Of a stretch of DNA of 64,000 nucleotides, positions 5,159 through 38,444 are shown one piece after another. The DNA is from Acidobacteriaceae bacterium. Lineage in GTDB: Bacteria; Acidobacteriota; Terriglobia; Terriglobales; Acidobacteriaceae. Location: NCBI GenBank assembly GCA_003132445.1, contig PKXU01000164.1, positions 1 through 64,000 on the forward strand. Reading direction: 5' to 3'. Both the position numbers and the translations under genes were made by a program. The notes beneath the pieces were generated by a model. The model had not been told where the DNA came from. It saw only the letters and a list, made by a program, of their open reading frames with translations, and did not search any database. Position 1 is the first letter of the stretch, and each line of letters starts with the position of its first letter.

Positions 5159-7216
5159 TCAGTTGTGCTGCGCCTGCCCCGCGCTCGCCTCGACTAATTG
5201 TTGCACCGGGGCCGTCACCATCAGAAACATATCGGCCTGCCGCGTCTTGGCTTGATCGATCACGGCCATCTGCTGCGTCTTCCAGGAATCCGGCGCAGTT
5301 TGGCCCCTATCAATATAGTCAAGCGCCTCAAGACCCGCTTCGCCTAAGGCTGACAGATTCTGCGACAACGGCACATCTTCCTGCAGGATAGACGATTGCT
5401 CCAGCAGCGGATGCAGTTTGGCATCGTTGTCCCGCCACGTAGTGAGGTAACTGCGAATCTGCTCTTCTGCGGCGCGATCTTTGCACCCGCCTTGCACGAA
5501 GCTCTGCACCAGTTCGCTGAAGCGCCGAGCCGTGTCACTCTCAGGGCTCACCGCATCGATCATGCGCGTAAGAGGTGAATGGAAATCGATGGGGCCCTTG
5601 GCGTCGTCCCAGCGGTTGTACTCTTTCACTGGTTCGACCACGTCGGCAAGCACGCGCAGCGCGCTGATATCAGAGTTTCCCGCCATTCGCTGCAACATGT
5701 GCGCGCGCGCGGAATTGTGAGTCAGGCCGAGCGATTCCAATTGATAACTCACCGCATTCATTCGTCGGTACATTGAGGCAACATCTTTGACCTCCTGCGG
5801 CGACCACAACCTCTCGGCGATCACCGCATTCCGCGGCCAGATGTGCGAATCGATGTTTTCCGGCGTCACCCACTCGGCCCACTGGCAAGACTCGCCGCCG
5901 AGGATAAGGCTTCTCTCTTGCGGAGTCAGGTCCGCGGCACCATCGGTCGTTGTCATGCTCATCGGGTCAACGGCATAGTGCCTGGCCGCCGGCCACATGA
6001 GGTCGAGATAATATCCATACGAAAGCAGGCCCCGGTAGCCTTGTTTCGCGGCCGCAGCCAACGAAGCTTGCCCCCGCCACGACTGCACGATGACTGTCTT
6101 CGGCAAATCAGGGTGCAGGATTTCGTCCCATCCAACCATGGTTTTGTGGTTCTTAGCCACGATTTTTTCCAGGCGCTGGTTGAAGTAGGCCTGCAAATCC
6201 TGATTGTTCTTCATGCCGTGAGCTTTAATGAATTCCTGAATTTTCGGATTCGCGTCCCACTGCTTGCCGTCGACTTCGTCGCCTCCAATGTGGAAATAAG
6301 GGTCGGGAAACAGTTTGGCCATCTCCGCAATGAACTTTTCCAAAAATTTATAGGTCGATTCGCGCGTGGGATCCATGATGGGATCGATCCCCCCGCCTTC
6401 CAGCGTGTACGGACCGGCGCCGCTGGAAAGTTCGGGATAGCCGAGGAACCAAGATCGGCTGTGGCCCGGCATATCGAACTCGGGCAGGACGCGGATGCCG
6501 CGCTCATGCGCATAAGCGATGAACTCGCGAATCTGATCCTGCGTGTAAAACATGTTGTCCGAGCCCATCTCTGTCAGCTTGGGAAACTTCTTGCTCTCCA
6601 CGCGGAATCCCTGATCGTCGGAAAGATGCCAGTGCAGCACGTTCATCTTCACCGCAGCCATGCCATCGATGTTCCGCTTAAGCACGTCGATGGGAATGAA
6701 ATGGCGGCTGACGTCGATCAGCATCCCGCGCCAAGGGAAGCGAGGCTGATCTTTGATGGTGACGACTGGGGCTGCGAATCCCGTGGGAGTGATTTGCACC
6801 AGCTGGAGAAATGTCTGCAGCCCGCGCAGGACGCCCAATGTAGTGGGCGCCGTGATCTTTGCGCCCGAATCGGCGACGGTCAGTTCGTAGGATTCATCCT
6901 CGTCAAGTTTCTGCACCGGTTGCAGACCCTGGTCGGCATGAACCTGCAAAGCCGGCGCAGCGCCCGGTTTCGGCCGAAACGGAATTCCGGTTTGCCGGGA
7001 AAGCTGGTCCACGAACCGCTGGACTGCGCCATCGAGCGCGGCATCATGCCCTCCAGTAACGACAATCGCGAACGATTGATTGATCGCCAGTTGTCCCGTG
7101 CCTTGCTGCACGCTTGCCGGCATAGGCATCAGATTGAGTTGTGGTTGGGATTGAGCAACGACAAAAGATGCCAGGAAAAATAAAATTAGGCCAGTCATTA
7201 CCTGCAGCGTTTTCAT
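5159..7216 (-). CDS. Secreted beta-N-acetylhexosaminidase, GH20
   Basis: 685 residues from ATG 7216, chosen because GAGGTGATCTC precedes it; a longer reading from 7246 lacks such a site. Signal peptide MKTLQVMTGLILFFLASFVVAQ, then a GH20b-like N-domain and the GH20 TIM barrel with FPWRGMLIDVSRHF, MNVLHWHLSDDQGF and HIGGDEV. The Asp-Glu pair in GGDEV is the catalytic pair of GH20, which works by substrate-assisted hydrolysis. It should release GlcNAc or GalNAc from chitin, glycans or peptidoglycan fragments outside the cytoplasm. The toxin gene of the next pair ends 20 bases upstream on the same strand. Confidence 0.9.
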   Translation of the reverse strand: MKTLQVMTGLILFFLASFVVAQSQPQLNLMPMPASVQQGTGQLAINQSFAIVVTGGHDAALDGAVQRFVDQLSRQTGIPFRPKPGAAPALQVHADQGLQPVQKLDEDESYELTVADSGAKITAPTTLGVLRGLQTFLQLVQITPTGFAAPVVTIKDQPRFPWRGMLIDVSRHFIPIDVLKRNIDGMAAVKMNVLHWHLSDDQGFRVESKKFPKLTEMGSDNMFYTQDQIREFIAYAHERGIRVLPEFDMPGHSRSWFLGYPELSSGAGPYTLEGGGIDPIMDPTRESTYKFLEKFIAEMAKLFPDPYFHIGGDEVDGKQWDANPKIQEFIKAHGMKNNQDLQAYFNQRLEKIVAKNHKTMVGWDEILHPDLPKTVIVQSWRGQASLAAAAKQGYRGLLSYGYYLDLMWPAARHYAVDPMSMTTTDGAADLTPQERSLILGGESCQWAEWVTPENIDSHIWPRNAVIAERLWSPQEVKDVASMYRRMNAVSYQLESLGLTHNSARAHMLQRMAGNSDISALRVLADVVEPVKEYNRWDDAKGPIDFHSPLTRMIDAVSPESDTARRFSELVQSFVQGGCKDRAAEEQIRSYLTTWRDNDAKLHPLLEQSSILQEDVPLSQNLSALGEAGLEALDYIDRGQTAPDSWKTQQMAVIDQAKTRQADMFLMVTAPVQQLVEASAGQAQHN

Positions 7217-34026: not shown

Positions 34027-35208
34027 TCATACTACGTTTTCCAGCGCCAGCGCCATGCCCATGCCGCCGCTCACGCACAGCGTGGCCACGCCGCGCCTGG
34101 TATTGCGTTTCAGCATTTCATGCAGCAGGGTCACCGTAATGCGCGTGCCCGTACAACCAATGGGATGCCCCAGCGCAATGGCCCCGCCATTCACATTGAG
34201 CCGGTCGCGATTGAAATTTAACGTCCGGTCGCAGGCTAACACTTGCGCGGCAAACGCTTCATTGAGTTCGATCAGCCCGAACTCTTGCAGCCTAAGATTA
34301 TGTTTCTCTTCTAACTTCCGCAGCGCCGGAACCGGCCCCATTCCCATCGTCCGCGGATCCACTCCCGCCGAAGTTACCGCGGCAATCCGCGCCAGCGGCT
34401 TCAGATTATTCTGCTTCACAAAATGTTCGCTGGCCACAACAACCGCCGCTGCGCCATCCGTGATGCCGGAAGAATTTCCCGCAGTAACGGTTCCAGTTTC
34501 CGAAAATACGGGCGCAAGTTTCCCCAGCTTTTCCAAACTCGCTTCCGGAAAGGGATGCTCATCGCGCGCAAAAGTAGCCGCACCCTTCTTTCCCTCGATC
34601 GTCACCGGAACAATCTCCGCCTCGAAGCGCCCCGAGGCAATGGCACGTGCAGCGCGGGTTTGCGACAGTAGCGCAAACTCATCCTGCTCCTCGCGCGTAA
34701 TTTTATATTGCTCTGCCAGCACCTCGGCCGTTTCGCCCATCACCATCTGCGCTAAAGGACAGAAAAATCCGTCGCGATACATCCCATCCACCAGTTCCTG
34801 ATTGCCCAGCCGATAACCCCAGCGCGCTTTATCGAGATAGTAAGGAACCCGCGACATCGACTCCGTCCCGCCGGCCAGAATGCAGTTCGCATCGCCGAGC
34901 AGAATCGCCTGATACGCCAGCGCAATCGCCTTCATCCCCGACGCGCAAGCTTTGTTCACCGTGAACGCCGGAACTTCCTGCGGCACTCCACTGCGCACCG
35001 AAATCTGCCGGGCCACATTCGGCCCGCCGCCAGCCTGCCGCGCATTGCCAAAAATAGTTTCCTCAACCTGTGCCGGCTCAGTCCTGGCGCGCTCCATCGC
35101 GGCCCTGGCCGCCACCACGCCCATATCCGCCGCAGTCAGCGAAGCCAGCGTCCCGCCAAACTTCCCAATCGGCGTCCGCACGGCAGAAAGAATGTAAACA
35201 GCCTGCAA
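34027..35208 (-). CDS. Acetyl-CoA C-acyltransferase (thiolase)
   Basis: 393 residues from a TTG at 35208, suggested because GGAGGTG lies seven bases before it; an ATG at 35226 would instead put the Shine-Dalgarno inside the gene. The thiolase motifs are present: nucleophile in NKACASGMKA, MNVNGGAIALGHPIGCTG-like NVNGGAIALGHPIGCTG, and the second Cys in LCVSGGMGMA. It condenses two acetyl-CoA or cleaves acetoacetyl-CoA; the exact chain length is not given by the sequence. Its start lies in a 39-bp repeat shared with 37087-37125. Confidence 0.9.
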   Translation of the reverse strand: MQAVYILSAVRTPIGKFGGTLASLTAADMGVVAARAAMERARTEPAQVEETIFGNARQAGGGPNVARQISVRSGVPQEVPAFTVNKACASGMKAIALAYQAILLGDANCILAGGTESMSRVPYYLDKARWGYRLGNQELVDGMYRDGFFCPLAQMVMGETAEVLAEQYKITREEQDEFALLSQTRAARAIASGRFEAEIVPVTIEGKKGAATFARDEHPFPEASLEKLGKLAPVFSETGTVTAGNSSGITDGAAAVVVASEHFVKQNNLKPLARIAAVTSAGVDPRTMGMGPVPALRKLEEKHNLRLQEFGLIELNEAFAAQVLACDRTLNFNRDRLNVNGGAIALGHPIGCTGTRITVTLLHEMLKRNTRRGVATLCVSGGMGMALALENVV

Positions 35209-35240
35209 GCCCACACCTCCAAACATTCGAGTCTAGCAGG
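35202..35240 (-). repeat. 39-bp repeat, copy 1, spanning the thiolase start
   Basis: 32 of 39 bases match the copy at 37087-37125 in the same orientation. On the minus strand it starts CCTGCTAGACTCGAATGTTT and contains GGAG and CTTGC. Here it supplies the Shine-Dalgarno and start region of the thiolase gene. Confidence 0.7.
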
Positions 35241-35293: not shown

Positions 35294-35596
35294 ATGCTTG
35301 ACCTCACTCAAGATATTCAGTCGCTGACTACCTTTCGTCGCCGTTCGGGAGACTTTCTCAAACAACTGCGGAAGAGCAAACGGCCGGTGGTCCTGACGGT
35401 AAAAGGAAGAGCTGCCGCTGTAGTCCAGGATGCGGAAGCCTATCAGAGGCTGCTTGACATCGCCGCAGCCGCCGATGTCCGCGAAGGCATTCGCCAGGGC
35501 TTGGAAGAAGCAAGAAAGGGAAGAGGCCGGCCTGCGCATCAGTTTTTCAAGGAATTTGACGCTGAGATCAAGCAAAAGTATGGCTTATCTCGTTAG
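35294..35596 (+). CDS. Phd/YefM-family antitoxin
   Basis: 100 residues. MLDLTQDIQSLTTFRRRSGDFLKQLRKSKRPVVLTVKGRAAAVVQDAEAYQRLLD shows the Phd/YefM fold (DNA-binding N-terminus with the VLTVKGRAAAVVQDAEAY strand-helix unit). The C-terminal part should mask the toxin. GGAG lies upstream. The last 17 bases overlap the toxin start at 35580. Confidence 0.88.
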   Translation: MLDLTQDIQSLTTFRRRSGDFLKQLRKSKRPVVLTVKGRAAAVVQDAEAYQRLLDIAAAADVREGIRQGLEEARKGRGRPAHQFFKEFDAEIKQKYGLSR

Positions 35597-35900
35597 TCTC
35601 ATGCCCCGAGCCAAGCGTGATTTGAAATTGCTCTTCGAACACATTCACGCAACCGAATCGGTAGCGGCTTTTCGATGGTACGAAGGTCTTAAAGGCGCGA
35701 TCTTGAGTTTGGAAGAACATCCCACCCGAGGCCCTGCGATTCCTGAGAACAAGCAGCTCCGGCATCTTCTTTACGGCCACAAGCCTCATATCTATCGCGT
35801 AATCTATCGCGTGAAGGAGCGGGCCAAGCGAGTGGAGATTCTCCACATCCGTCACGGCGCTCGGAGAAGATTCGCGATCACTATCAAAGACGAATCCTGA
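35580..35900 (+). CDS. ParE/RelE-family toxin
   Basis: 106 residues from ATG 35580, chosen because the family begins MAYLVSLMPRAKRDLKLLFEHI; a longer frame from 35430 only shadows the antitoxin gene. FRWYEGLKGAILSLEEHPTRGP and RHLLYGHKPHIYRVIYRVKE are family-typical, ending VEILHIRHGARRRF. The 17-base overlap with the antitoxin suggests coupled translation. Confidence 0.87.
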   Translation: MAYLVSLMPRAKRDLKLLFEHIHATESVAAFRWYEGLKGAILSLEEHPTRGPAIPENKQLRHLLYGHKPHIYRVIYRVKERAKRVEILHIRHGARRRFAITIKDES

Positions 35901-35990: not shown

Positions 35991-36872
35991 ATGCCGTACG
36001 TTGATGTGGGAAAAGAAAATTCAACTTCCATCCATCTTTACTACGAAGACCACGGCACCGGCCAGCCCGTGGTTCTGATCCACGGATATCCACTCAGCAG
36101 CGCGTCCTGGGAAAAACAGGTTCCCGCCCTTCTGCAAGCGGGCCACCGCGTCATCGCCTATGACCGCCGCGGATTCGGAAAGTCCAGCCAGCCCACCTCC
36201 GGCTACAACTACAATACCTTCGCCGAAGATCTGCACAAACTCGTCACGCATCTCAAGCTGACCGATTTTGCTCTCGTGGGCTTCTCCATGGGCGGCGGCG
36301 AAGTGGCGCGCTACATCGGCAGATACGGATCGAAGGATGTCAGCAAGGCGGTCATCATCAGCGGCGTTCCGCCCTTCCTGCTGAAGACCGCCGACAACCC
36401 TGAGGGCGTGGATGGCAGCGTGTTCGAAGGCATCGAGAAAGCTGTCTCCGCCGATCGTTACGCCTTCTTCACAGCGTTTTTCAAAGACTTCTACAACACC
36501 GACGTCTATCTGGGAAAGCGCGTCAGCGAGCAGGCCGTGCAGGCAAGCTGGAATGTGGCGGCCTCCGCTTCCGGCACCGCCAGCTTGGCCTGCGTGCCCA
36601 CCTGGTATGAAGACTTCCGTGGCGACGTGGCCCAGATCGACGTTCCCACGCTGGTGATTCAGGGCGACTCGGATCGCATCGTGCCTTTTTCGGCCTCGGG
36701 ACAGCGCACTGCCAAGCTGGTGAGCGGCGCCGAACTCGTCGTCATCAAAGACGGTCCGCACAACATCGCGTGGACGCACGCAGACGAAGTCAACACCGCG
36801 CTGCTCAACTTCCTGGCGAAGCCAGCCGCCATAGGCCAGGCATCGGCCCCGAAGAGAAAAGCCGTAGCCTAG
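35991..36872 (+). CDS. Alpha/beta hydrolase, non-heme chloroperoxidase-like
   Basis: 293 residues after TAGGAGGATCT. HGYPLSSASWEKQ (oxyanion region), the nucleophile elbow GFSMGGGEVARYI, a catalytic Asp in IQGDSDRIVPF and His in GPHNIAWTHADEV. The RRGFGKSSQPTSGYNYNTFAEDL stretch and the length match the perhydrolase/chloroperoxidase branch. It may act as an esterase or perhydrolase; the natural substrate is unknown. No signal peptide. Confidence 0.88.
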   Translation: MPYVDVGKENSTSIHLYYEDHGTGQPVVLIHGYPLSSASWEKQVPALLQAGHRVIAYDRRGFGKSSQPTSGYNYNTFAEDLHKLVTHLKLTDFALVGFSMGGGEVARYIGRYGSKDVSKAVIISGVPPFLLKTADNPEGVDGSVFEGIEKAVSADRYAFFTAFFKDFYNTDVYLGKRVSEQAVQASWNVAASASGTASLACVPTWYEDFRGDVAQIDVPTLVIQGDSDRIVPFSASGQRTAKLVSGAELVVIKDGPHNIAWTHADEVNTALLNFLAKPAAIGQASAPKRKAVA

Positions 36873-36912
36873 GTTTCCGGACCGCTGTTCACCATCGGCC
36901 GTGGTCGACACA

Positions 36913-37001
36913 TTGTCATCCTGGCGAAGCGAAGGACCTATGCAATTCTCGCCGCGACTGCATAGATTCTTCGCGTCAGAAGACGCCGCTCAGGATGACA
37001 A
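36913..37001. repeat. 89-bp palindromic intergenic element
   Basis: Terminal arms TTGTCATCCTG (36913-36923) and CAGGATGACAA (36991-37001) are perfect complements; inside, GCGAAGCGAAGG...CTATGCA pairs with TGCATAG...CTTCGCG. The GTCATCCTGGCGAAGCGAAGGA start relates it to the repeats at 1569, 20833 and 43886. It resembles a REP or MITE-like element. Confidence 0.75.
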
Positions 37002-37086
37002 GTTTTCTTTCAACTTGCCAGCTGCGCGCAGAAGTGGGGATGCTGCAGAGCCCTTAGACTCAGCGTCCACGCAAGAAGATAGATCC

Positions 37087-37125
37087 CCGGCAAGTCCGCA
37101 GCTCCAAACGCTTGAGTCTAGCAGG
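37087..37125 (-). repeat. 39-bp repeat, copy 2
   Basis: 32 of 39 bases are shared with 35202-35240 in the same orientation. Here it lies downstream of the tandem tiny genes and starts no gene, which suggests a dispersed element rather than a gene part. Confidence 0.7.
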
Positions 37126-37152
37126 GTGGGCGGCAGGGGTAGTGCCATCTCG

Positions 37153-37293
37153 TCAGGCTTTGTTGTCAGGCTTTTGATGCTCTTGCTCTTCCCTGCGTCG
37201 TTGTTGTTCTCTGCGTTGCTGCTCTTCTCGCTGTCTTTGAATCTCTCGAGCCTCGTTCGGATCAGCATCTTTCTGCTCTCTAAACTCTGTCAC
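37153..37293 (-). CDS. Tiny E/Q/R-rich protein 2 (46 residues)
   Basis: A GTG start with a near-ideal GAGGAGGATTT just upstream. The peptide reads MTEFREQKDADPNEAREIQR and continues with QREEQQRREQQRRREEQEHQ and KPDNKA. More than half of it is Glu, Gln or Arg, predicting one long charged helix with no hydrophobic core. It is clearly paralogous to the gene at 37327-37464, and both share the DPxE...EIQRQREEQ core and the REEQE..xPDxK end. The base string after both stops (TGACGAGAT) is also shared, so the pair arose by tandem duplication. Function unknown. Confidence 0.72.
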   Translation of the reverse strand: MTEFREQKDADPNEAREIQRQREEQQRREQQRRREEQEHQKPDNKA

Positions 37294-37326
37294 AAATCCT
37301 CCTCGGGACGACGAGCAGTAATCTCG

Positions 37327-37464
37327 TCAGTCCTTCTTGTCAGGCCGTTGGCCTTCTTGCTCTTCTCTACGTCGTTGTTCTTCTCTTCGCTGTTCTTCCC
37401 TTTGTCTCTGGATTTCTTGAATTTCTTTCGGGTCAGTCGGTTTTTGGTCCTGGGCCTTGGCCAC
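37327..37464 (-). CDS. Tiny E/Q/R-rich protein 1 (45 residues)
   Basis: A GTG start preceded by GGAGGTAATC, inside the last codons of the gene upstream (32-base overlap). The peptide reads MAKAQDQKPTDPKEIQEIQR and continues with QREEQRREEQRRREEQEGQR and PDKKD. It is paralogous to the next gene, which starts 33 bases after its stop. Composition predicts a single charged helix, possibly RNA- or protein-binding or a coiled coil. No family is recognised. Confidence 0.72.
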   Translation of the reverse strand: MAKAQDQKPTDPKEIQEIQRQREEQRREEQRRREEQEGQRPDKKD

Positions 37465-38011
37465 GATTACCTCCTTCGATTCTCGTTTGATTGGAGCGCT
37501 GAACGATATTCGTTGCTGTCCACGTCGTCTTCCTGTCGCACACCTTCAACGTTAGTCTGTAAGCAAGAGTGCCGTTGTCCGGGAGTTCAACCAATACCTG
37601 ATCTTGAATCGGCTCTGACGATTCAATCCAGGGGTGCTCTGTAAATACGTCGAAAACCGCAGGCTGATCGGTCCATCTGATCTGGCAAGGCCACGACGGG
37701 CTGGTGTAGTAAATGACGGCCGGGTGGAGTTGTAGGATCGTTCCTTCTTGGCTGACTAGCACCCTTGAAAGGCCGACGTTCTTCGCTGTAACGACAACCT
37801 TTAGCAGCAGTCGTCCAGAGCTCGCTTCCAGCGAGCCGTCTACTTCACACTCAAGTCTCGACTTGTATGTTCGACCTTTGAAAAAGTTGAAGTACGTCCA
37901 GATCGCTCCTACGCCAATTGCCGCGATCTCGCAGACATTCTTGAGCATTTCCACAAATGCGCTGACGCCGAAGCCGATCTGGTCGAACTGCGAGGGAGGG
38001 GTGACAGACAT
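37433..38011 (-). CDS. Membrane-anchored protein, unknown function
   Basis: 192 residues. One hydrophobic segment (residues about 22-43, MLKNVCEIAAIGVGAIWTYFNFF) is followed by a domain of about 140 residues with beta character (LECEVDGSLEASSGRLLLKVVVTAKNVGLSRVLVSQEGTILQL). The VVVTAKNVGLSRVLV stretch resembles an Ig-like or adhesion strand pattern, and the chain ends in a Gly/Pro-rich tail. Not recognised. It heads a likely operon with the two tiny genes. Confidence 0.7.
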   Translation of the reverse strand: MSVTPPSQFDQIGFGVSAFVEMLKNVCEIAAIGVGAIWTYFNFFKGRTYKSRLECEVDGSLEASSGRLLLKVVVTAKNVGLSRVLVSQEGTILQLHPAVIYYTSPSWPCQIRWTDQPAVFDVFTEHPWIESSEPIQDQVLVELPDNGTLAYRLTLKVCDRKTTWTATNIVQRSNQTRIEGGNRGQGPGPKTD

Positions 38012-38102
38012 TTGCAGATGCCTTAGACTTGAAAGTGTTGTCAGTTAAGGTCGGAAAGTCAACACGAATCGGCGCAAAGGGATGTGGCCCCTCCGCCGCC
38101 CC

Positions 38103-38131
38103 TTGCCATCCCGCCTAACCTTCGGCATAAT
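38103..38131 (+). promoter_or_regulatory. Sigma-70-type promoter of the rpsP operon
   Basis: TTGCCA (38103-38108), a 17-bp spacer and CATAAT (38126-38131). A start near 38138 gives a leader of about 46 bases to the rpsP start. Confidence 0.65.
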
Positions 38132-38183
38132 AAGAGTTTGCCTCGATCTCACCGGACTCTTCCGGAACAAGGATATAAGACCT

Positions 38184-38444
38184 GTGTTAATGATTCGTCT
38201 GGCGCGCCGTGGTGCGCGCAAACAACCGCACTATCGCATTGTGGTGATTGAGAAGGCCAGCGCTCGCAACGGCCGTCCGGTGGAAGTAGTCGGGACTTAC
38301 AATCCCCGCACCAATCCCGCCAGCGTCGAACTGAAGCGCGATCGCGTGGAGTATTGGGTGTCGAAGGGCGCCCAGATGTCGGAGCGTGTGAACAAATTGT
38401 TCTCCAAAGCTCCGGCTCCAGCCGCTGCCGGCTCTGCTGCCTAG
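38184..38444 (+). CDS. rpsP: 30S ribosomal protein S16
   Basis: 86 residues from GTG 38184, giving MLMIRLARRGARKQPHYRIVV, which aligns with E. coli MVTIRLARHG; an ATG at 38190 is possible. AAGGATATAAGA lies upstream. S16 is a small-subunit assembly protein. First gene of rpsP-khpA-rimM-trmD-rplS, but a 247-bp gap with a hairpin follows. Confidence 0.95.
   Translation: MLMIRLARRGARKQPHYRIVVIEKASARNGRPVEVVGTYNPRTNPASVELKRDRVEYWVSKGAQMSERVNKLFSKAPAPAAAGSAA

Follow-up and report, generated by a model that had tools for sequence, protein, structure and literature searches.

Regulation of a membrane protein by a small protein encoded next to it is of a known kind, with CydX, KdpF and MgtS, themselves hydrophobic, as examples. 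The locus described here is similar in that a tiny protein is encoded beside, and is apparently co-transcribed with, a membrane protein, but the peptides of the present module would be soluble and highly charged, with a motif that is often repeated, and its membrane protein is predicted to consist of one helix and an Ig-like domain. Type II toxin-antitoxin systems share with the module the two small overlapping genes and the patchy spread, and they differ from it in gene order, as here the membrane protein gene comes first and is followed by one or two peptide genes; no known toxin or antitoxin family was matched at significance by the three proteins of the window (Pfam, NCBIfam) or by eight members of the family (PADLOC). 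The peptides are also short, charged and E/Q/K/R-rich like the modifiers Pup and UBact. Pup and UBact carry a C-terminal GGE/GGQ or RTGE-type tail, which was seen by eye in none of 29 small proteins, and the modifier reading was rejected. DUF4352 (PF11611) and other Ig-like domains resemble the membrane protein by weak similarity and by the Ig-like fold, but the match is not significant and the protein of the module is predicted to be anchored by an N-terminal helix. Nothing on this gene pair was found in the titles and abstract openings returned by literature searches, which is weak evidence of absence.

The window, i.e., the whole 64,000-nt stretch of an Acidobacteriaceae contig that was analysed in the present study, carries this module at 37153-38011. 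The reading that we prefer, with a probability of about one half, is that its three genes form one operon of a horizontally moving module, the small cytosolic peptides of which bind the membrane-anchored Ig-like domain.

Gene arrangement and coding constraint

All genes of the module lie on the minus strand. The first one (37433-38011, ATG start) encodes a 192-aa protein with profile homologues, for which an AlphaFold2 model predicts a membrane anchor and an Ig-like domain. It is followed by the genes for two E/Q/R-rich small proteins, one of 45 aa (copy 1, 37327-37464) and one of 46 aa (copy 2, 37153-37293), both with GTG as the start codon. On the same strand, the Shine-Dalgarno region of copy 1 (37465-37476) reads AAGGAGGTAATC before the GTG, with GGAGGTAATC as the Shine-Dalgarno string, and that of copy 2 (37294-37304) reads GAGGAGGATTT; TGACGAGAT is common to the stops of both small ORFs. 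The two GTG-started reading frames with strong Shine-Dalgarno sequences and the 32-nt overlap between copy 1 and the 192-aa gene (37433-37464), to which the earlier note had drawn attention, are indeed present in the sequence. The neighbour of the module on one side is an alpha/beta hydrolase gene and on the other a divergent S16-like gene, the product of which we take to be ribosomal protein S16 (rpsP). No RNA element reached the Rfam gathering score between 36000 and 39000, and a promoter/terminator scan returned no minus-strand site. A repeat with inverted halves (TGTCATCCTG..GCGAAGCGAAGGACC) occupies 36913-37001 of the window, with partial copies at four other places of the genome and in the related genome G011.

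The two small genes contain a 72-nt direct repeat, 81% identical, with the copies 174 nt apart. Copies 1 and 2 differ at 21.5 of 25.8 synonymous sites (pS 0.832) and at 20.5 of 109.2 non-synonymous sites (pN 0.188); the tandem duplication is considered old because the protein was kept while the synonymous sites became nearly saturated. The duplication that the earlier note had read from the string shared by the two genes is borne out by this repeat and by these substitution values, beyond what chance would give. For the small genes of loci L007 and L008, which come from two relatives and the neighbourhoods of which match as well, dS was 0.48, dN 0.10 and pN/pS 0.26, against a pN/pS of 0.24 in the adjoining membrane protein gene, and three further small-gene pairs gave pN/pS values of 0.26 to 0.46. 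The comparison of synonymous with non-synonymous change, proposed in the same note, thus revealed coding constraint in five small-gene pairs in all (pN/pS 0.23-0.46). On the evidence of reading frame, Shine-Dalgarno sequence and substitution pattern, both small ORFs of the window are very likely real genes, old tandem copies each kept as a protein.

Within its own genome, the small protein matches these two places alone up to E 1, with no third copy. AlphaFold2 modelled copy 1 as a lone helix over residues 12-39 (mean pLDDT 76.5). The earlier impression that no family could be recognised still holds, as none of the three window proteins matched any Pfam family up to E 1, and in NCBIfam the 192-aa protein and copy 2 were without a match and copy 1 gave only a chance-level match to the ZapB model (E 0.044, 14.2 bits vs a cut-off of 132).

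The 192-aa protein

The label "membrane protein" given previously to the ORF at 37433-38011 stands as to the ORF itself, and the membrane location is a prediction from the modelled helix 8-44. Besides this helix, the AlphaFold2 model, which is only fair (mean pLDDT 75.2, pTM 0.60), places seven strands within residues 53-171; the modelled domain has the fold of a seven-strand Ig-like sandwich, which is a common fold from which no function follows. Foldseek returned weak matches to this model, the best being 1tza (E 1.3e-4, TM-score 0.34). In a second structure comparison, transglutaminase and GH2 chains led, with factor XIII at the top (1ggu_B, Z 11.0, rmsd 2.4, 108 aligned) and Spo0M close (Z 9.5); arrestin-like proteins and a putative ApaA ranked further down. 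Foldseek also matched Kir channels (E about 1e-3 to 6e-3, TM-score about 0.3), but a potassium-channel reading was discarded, since any helix followed by a sandwich would give such a generic match; the second comparison put transglutaminase and GH2 chains first.

No sequence relative was found among solved structures up to E 1, and searches of Pfam, NCBIfam, PADLOC and PHROGs matched the family to nothing at significance. Similarity to DUF4352 was weak and occurred in two of eight and in one of 20 members (best E 0.0088); the window copy had no match, so that the significant Pfam match by which membership would be judged was not obtained. By these profile comparisons the 192-aa protein belongs to an unnamed family, absent from Pfam and NCBIfam.

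As to topology, 19 of 20 homologues have more Lys and Arg residues after their most hydrophobic segment than ahead of it, and the positive-inside rule accordingly assigns the sandwich to the cytoplasmic side. The single exception is the window copy, in which the script picked the strand stretch 68-86, not the helix, as the most hydrophobic segment. The Ig-like sandwich, therefore, most likely faces the cytoplasm. Ig-like domains of such a sort are often located outside the cytoplasm, and cytosolic peptides could not reach a domain placed there.

Linkage of the small gene to the membrane protein gene

The association of the two kinds of genes was examined at 27 places, namely 26 with a profile E of 3.7e-17 or better and the plasmid locus L062; from 39 locus identifiers, L038 (on the contig of L058) and 12 weaker homologues (L022, L024, L029-L032, L051-L056) had been dropped. 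The controls were stop-to-stop open frames of at least 150 aa in any frame, whether or not they are real genes; of 696 such frames, 23 were homologues and were removed, and 651 had sufficient downstream sequence. In the strict test, which demanded an ORF of 30-100 aa with a Shine-Dalgarno sequence, at least 48% D/E/K/R/Q and a start between -60 and +150 of the membrane-gene stop, 16 of the 27 clear homologues were positive vs 0/651 control ORF ends, the 27 places not being independent (they include mutual orthologues and sequences from which the search profile was built). A relaxed test gave 22/27 vs 19/651. A motif test without the composition filter gave 15/27 vs 1/651, the motif having been drawn from these same peptides. 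In an earlier control, 3 of 260 were positive, and all three were themselves homologues (L060, L062 and L001).

By eye, a small hydrophilic ORF stands behind 26 of the 27 homologues, with the caveats that the ORF of L044 is not charge-rich and that of L040 runs off the contig. The only exception is the closest homologue, L058 (68% identity), the C-terminus of which has diverged and which lacks the small gene; it is also one of the five places that failed the relaxed test, together with L042, L044, L048 and L050. Among the 12 weaker homologues only L024 has a small charged ORF led by a Shine-Dalgarno sequence (26 aa), from which it follows that the linkage is specific to this family and not common to all helix-plus-sandwich proteins. 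One of these weaker homologues (L029, 1483-2181) ends in a hydrophilic tail rich in Q, which may represent a partner that has become fused to it; it is without the motif described below and was not counted.

The start of the small gene and the stop of the membrane protein gene overlap by 4 nt in L027, L041 and L047. Orthologues with a conserved start and Shine-Dalgarno sequence were thus found in related genomes, and the small ORF led by such a sequence recurs across genera and families and beyond the phylum, which supports, at the level of gene linkage, the earlier proposal of one operon. At the same level, the strict counts favour the suggestion that the peptides are small partners of the membrane protein; nothing in the analysis spoke for the other suggestion, that they bind RNA. 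The tandem arrangement, real in the window, is not general: L017 and L036 are likewise followed by two small genes, and the remaining members with a small gene have just one.

A motif shared by the small proteins

The small proteins across the loci are 31-98 aa long (one is cut), and their filler varies: the window copies have an E/R/Q helix, those of L041 and L047 are rich in glycine, and that of L043 has a Q run. Of the 29 small proteins, 18 contain the motif [ST]xx[IVLW]Exx[KR], at 26 sites in all and up to three per peptide, compared to a mean of 0.62 and a maximum of four sites in 5000 composition-preserving shuffles, counts that describe rather than test because the expression was made after the sequences had been seen. 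The motif is repeated within the peptides of L033, L034, L036, L037, L042 and L028, and it probably represents a helix capped by Ser/Thr. The 11 small proteins without it are both window copies and those of L007, L008, L035, L039, L040, L044, L045, L027 and L062; the window peptides have only IQRQR, which fits the loosest expression tried (24/29, with a mean of 7.8 in shuffles).

The same expression matched six of 20 membrane proteins (shuffle mean 1.04, with six reached in 1 of 2000), namely in the C-terminal tails of L033, L034 and L036, in the N-terminal helix of the window protein (residue 17) and of L065, and in the sandwich of L075. Its occurrence both in cis and in trans, multiplied by tandem genes or internal repeats, would fit docking with variable valency.

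A nine-row profile of the small proteins, run on 250 family genomes, matched its own members in G018 and G186, a protein in G904 (E 0.0057) that lies behind the homologue L042, and one in G410 (E 0.002) in an unrelated setting, and it missed the window genome (G000) and that of its genus-mate G013, although both carry the module. Homology among the small proteins is judged from position, composition and motif, and their homology by sequence is weak.

Distribution and presence or absence at one site

With the genome of the window counted, homologues of the 192-aa protein (E <= 1e-3) were detected in 6/101 relatives, 12/399 genomes of the class, 8/396 of the phylum and 29/398 of the family. At a profile E < 1e-17, 20/398 family genomes remained, again including its own, and a later 20-row profile found 8/399 class genomes at E <= 1e-8. 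Contigs of named genomes contained four homologue loci, one of them (L061) in a MAG labelled Dehalococcoidia, for which mis-binning is possible. The plasmid records contained one locus (L062), in Rhodococcus koreensis R85, where the membrane protein gene and the small gene are annotated as the hypothetical proteins WP_206017512 and WP_206017514. Judged by these searches, the module is found mainly in Acidobacteriota, patchily, and also in the MAG labelled Dehalococcoidia and on the actinobacterial plasmid. A phage origin was rejected, as the phage records gave no match and, of 35 candidate stretches in one viral-contig scan, none was confirmed.

At the site beside the S16-like gene, the module lies in a segment of 1,055 nt (37044-38098), in place of which the related genome G011 (L089) has 6 nt. 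By blastn of both flanks, 36807-37043 and 38099-38300 of the window align to 1158-1403 and 1410-1611 of L089 (reverse complement). The membrane protein was absent from the corresponding site in all 27 relatives' loci with usable upstream sequence (29 loci were examined of 35 relatives with an S16-like match, L086 and L098 having under 100 nt upstream); in L092 and L094 the upstream sequence extends over about 1.1 kb. A gain in the line of the window is the simplest reading of this pattern, and loss in the other lines is possible. Inside the segment, a 53-nt fragment (37073-37125) resembles the start of the gene at 34027-35226, presumably a thiolase gene, as seen in a repeat search and in the comparison with G011. 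It matches 35188-35240 of the window at 75% and is identical to the copy of G011 at 48 of 56 positions; nearer to the latter than to the window's own copy, it is possibly a recombination scar.

At 35294-35900 the window has a Phd/YefM antitoxin and ParE toxin pair (Pfam E 1.1e-10 and 1.3e-12). G018 (L087) carries a related pair immediately ahead of its S16-like gene, and in G011 (L089) there is none. This pair too is present or absent at the same stretch, which suggests an insertion hotspot. In 24 neighbourhoods, delimited with a crude ORF caller, the membrane protein gene was the sole general family (21 loci in one cluster), and the next clusters comprised four and three loci; L058 and L072 are on one contig there, and the ORF set contained no membrane-gene match for the window and L078.

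Discussion

According to the preferred reading, the first gene would give a protein anchored in the inner membrane through its N-terminal helix, with the Ig-like beta-sandwich most likely on the cytoplasmic side, and the following gene or genes would give small soluble peptides that consist of a charged helix or hydrophilic linker and, in most members, the motif. The most likely binding target of the peptides would be the Ig-like domain, or a third protein within reach of both, and binding would set the activity or the assembly of the Ig-like protein, with extra copies, either as tandem genes or as repeats within a peptide, raising valency or dose. The outcome might be regulation, toxin neutralisation or defence. 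What the sequence data demonstrate is coding constraint, gene linkage, a common motif and presence or absence at one site, from which topology, direction of movement, binding and function are inferred.

A serious but minority possibility is a toxin-antitoxin-like or phage-defence role of the module, with the membrane-bound Ig-like protein as a harmful effector or sensor and the peptide restraining it. The small two-gene size with overlapping genes, the patchy occurrence (the above 20/398 family genomes), the differing neighbourhoods and the presence or absence beside the S16-like gene lend it circumstantial support, as do the broken copies of the membrane protein gene (L008/L060, L050 and L051) and the Phd/ParE pair about 1.3 kb away, also present or absent in relatives. 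However, the eight members scanned belong to no PADLOC family, neither the phage records nor the viral-contig scan gave a confirmed match, and no neighbours recur generally; moreover, antitoxins do not typically come as tandem genes or with a repeated motif. Unlikely, in our estimate, is the arrangement in which the peptides and the tail of the membrane protein bind a common third protein encoded elsewhere, with the peptides competing or bridging. The small proteins do carry the motif in trans, and 3/20 membrane proteins carry it in cis in their C-terminal tails, but no third gene travels with the module, which is found on the Rhodococcus plasmid as well as in Acidobacteriota, so that the partner would have to be widespread.

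The motif bears as well on the idea that the small proteins are single charged helices, serving as spacers or scaffolds of irrelevant exact sequence and merely co-transcribed. The E/R/Q repeats of the window copies, the lone modelled helix 12-39 of copy 1 and the 11/29 small proteins without the motif, window copies included, agree with it. Single alpha-helix proteins are marked by a long uninterrupted E/R/K helix; window copy 1 is modelled as a helix over residues 12-39 only, and other members contain glycine- or Q-rich stretches. L041, L047 and L049, with glycine-containing linkers, and L043, with its Q run, all keep the motif. As the linkage is, in addition, specific to one membrane protein family and pN/pS is below 0.5 in five pairs, this idea is regarded as quite improbable.

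The preferred reading, that the peptides bind the Ig-like domain, can be extended to a bolder and rather doubtful form, i.e., a mobile module that occurs in at least two phyla and the Ig-like protein of which is checked or armed by multivalent motif-helix peptides. If true, this would be an undescribed kind of membrane-based immunity or addiction system in minimal form; as an addiction or defence element, it would be a new type in a little-studied phylum. Independently of this bolder form, the analysis provides tiny, easily overlooked charged proteins with a partner that can be tested and with a candidate motif for binding, and if the docking between motif and domain is real, the two would form a compact peptide-recognition pair.

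Two minor observations concern individual loci. In L060, around 5930-6402, which is the same gene as that of L008, the membrane protein gene is broken near the anchor region and the small gene behind it is open. Behind the module of L007 lies a gene for a small basic DUF6800 protein (2191-2361, E 1.8e-9), a near-identical ORF to which is found at 2133-2306 of L008.
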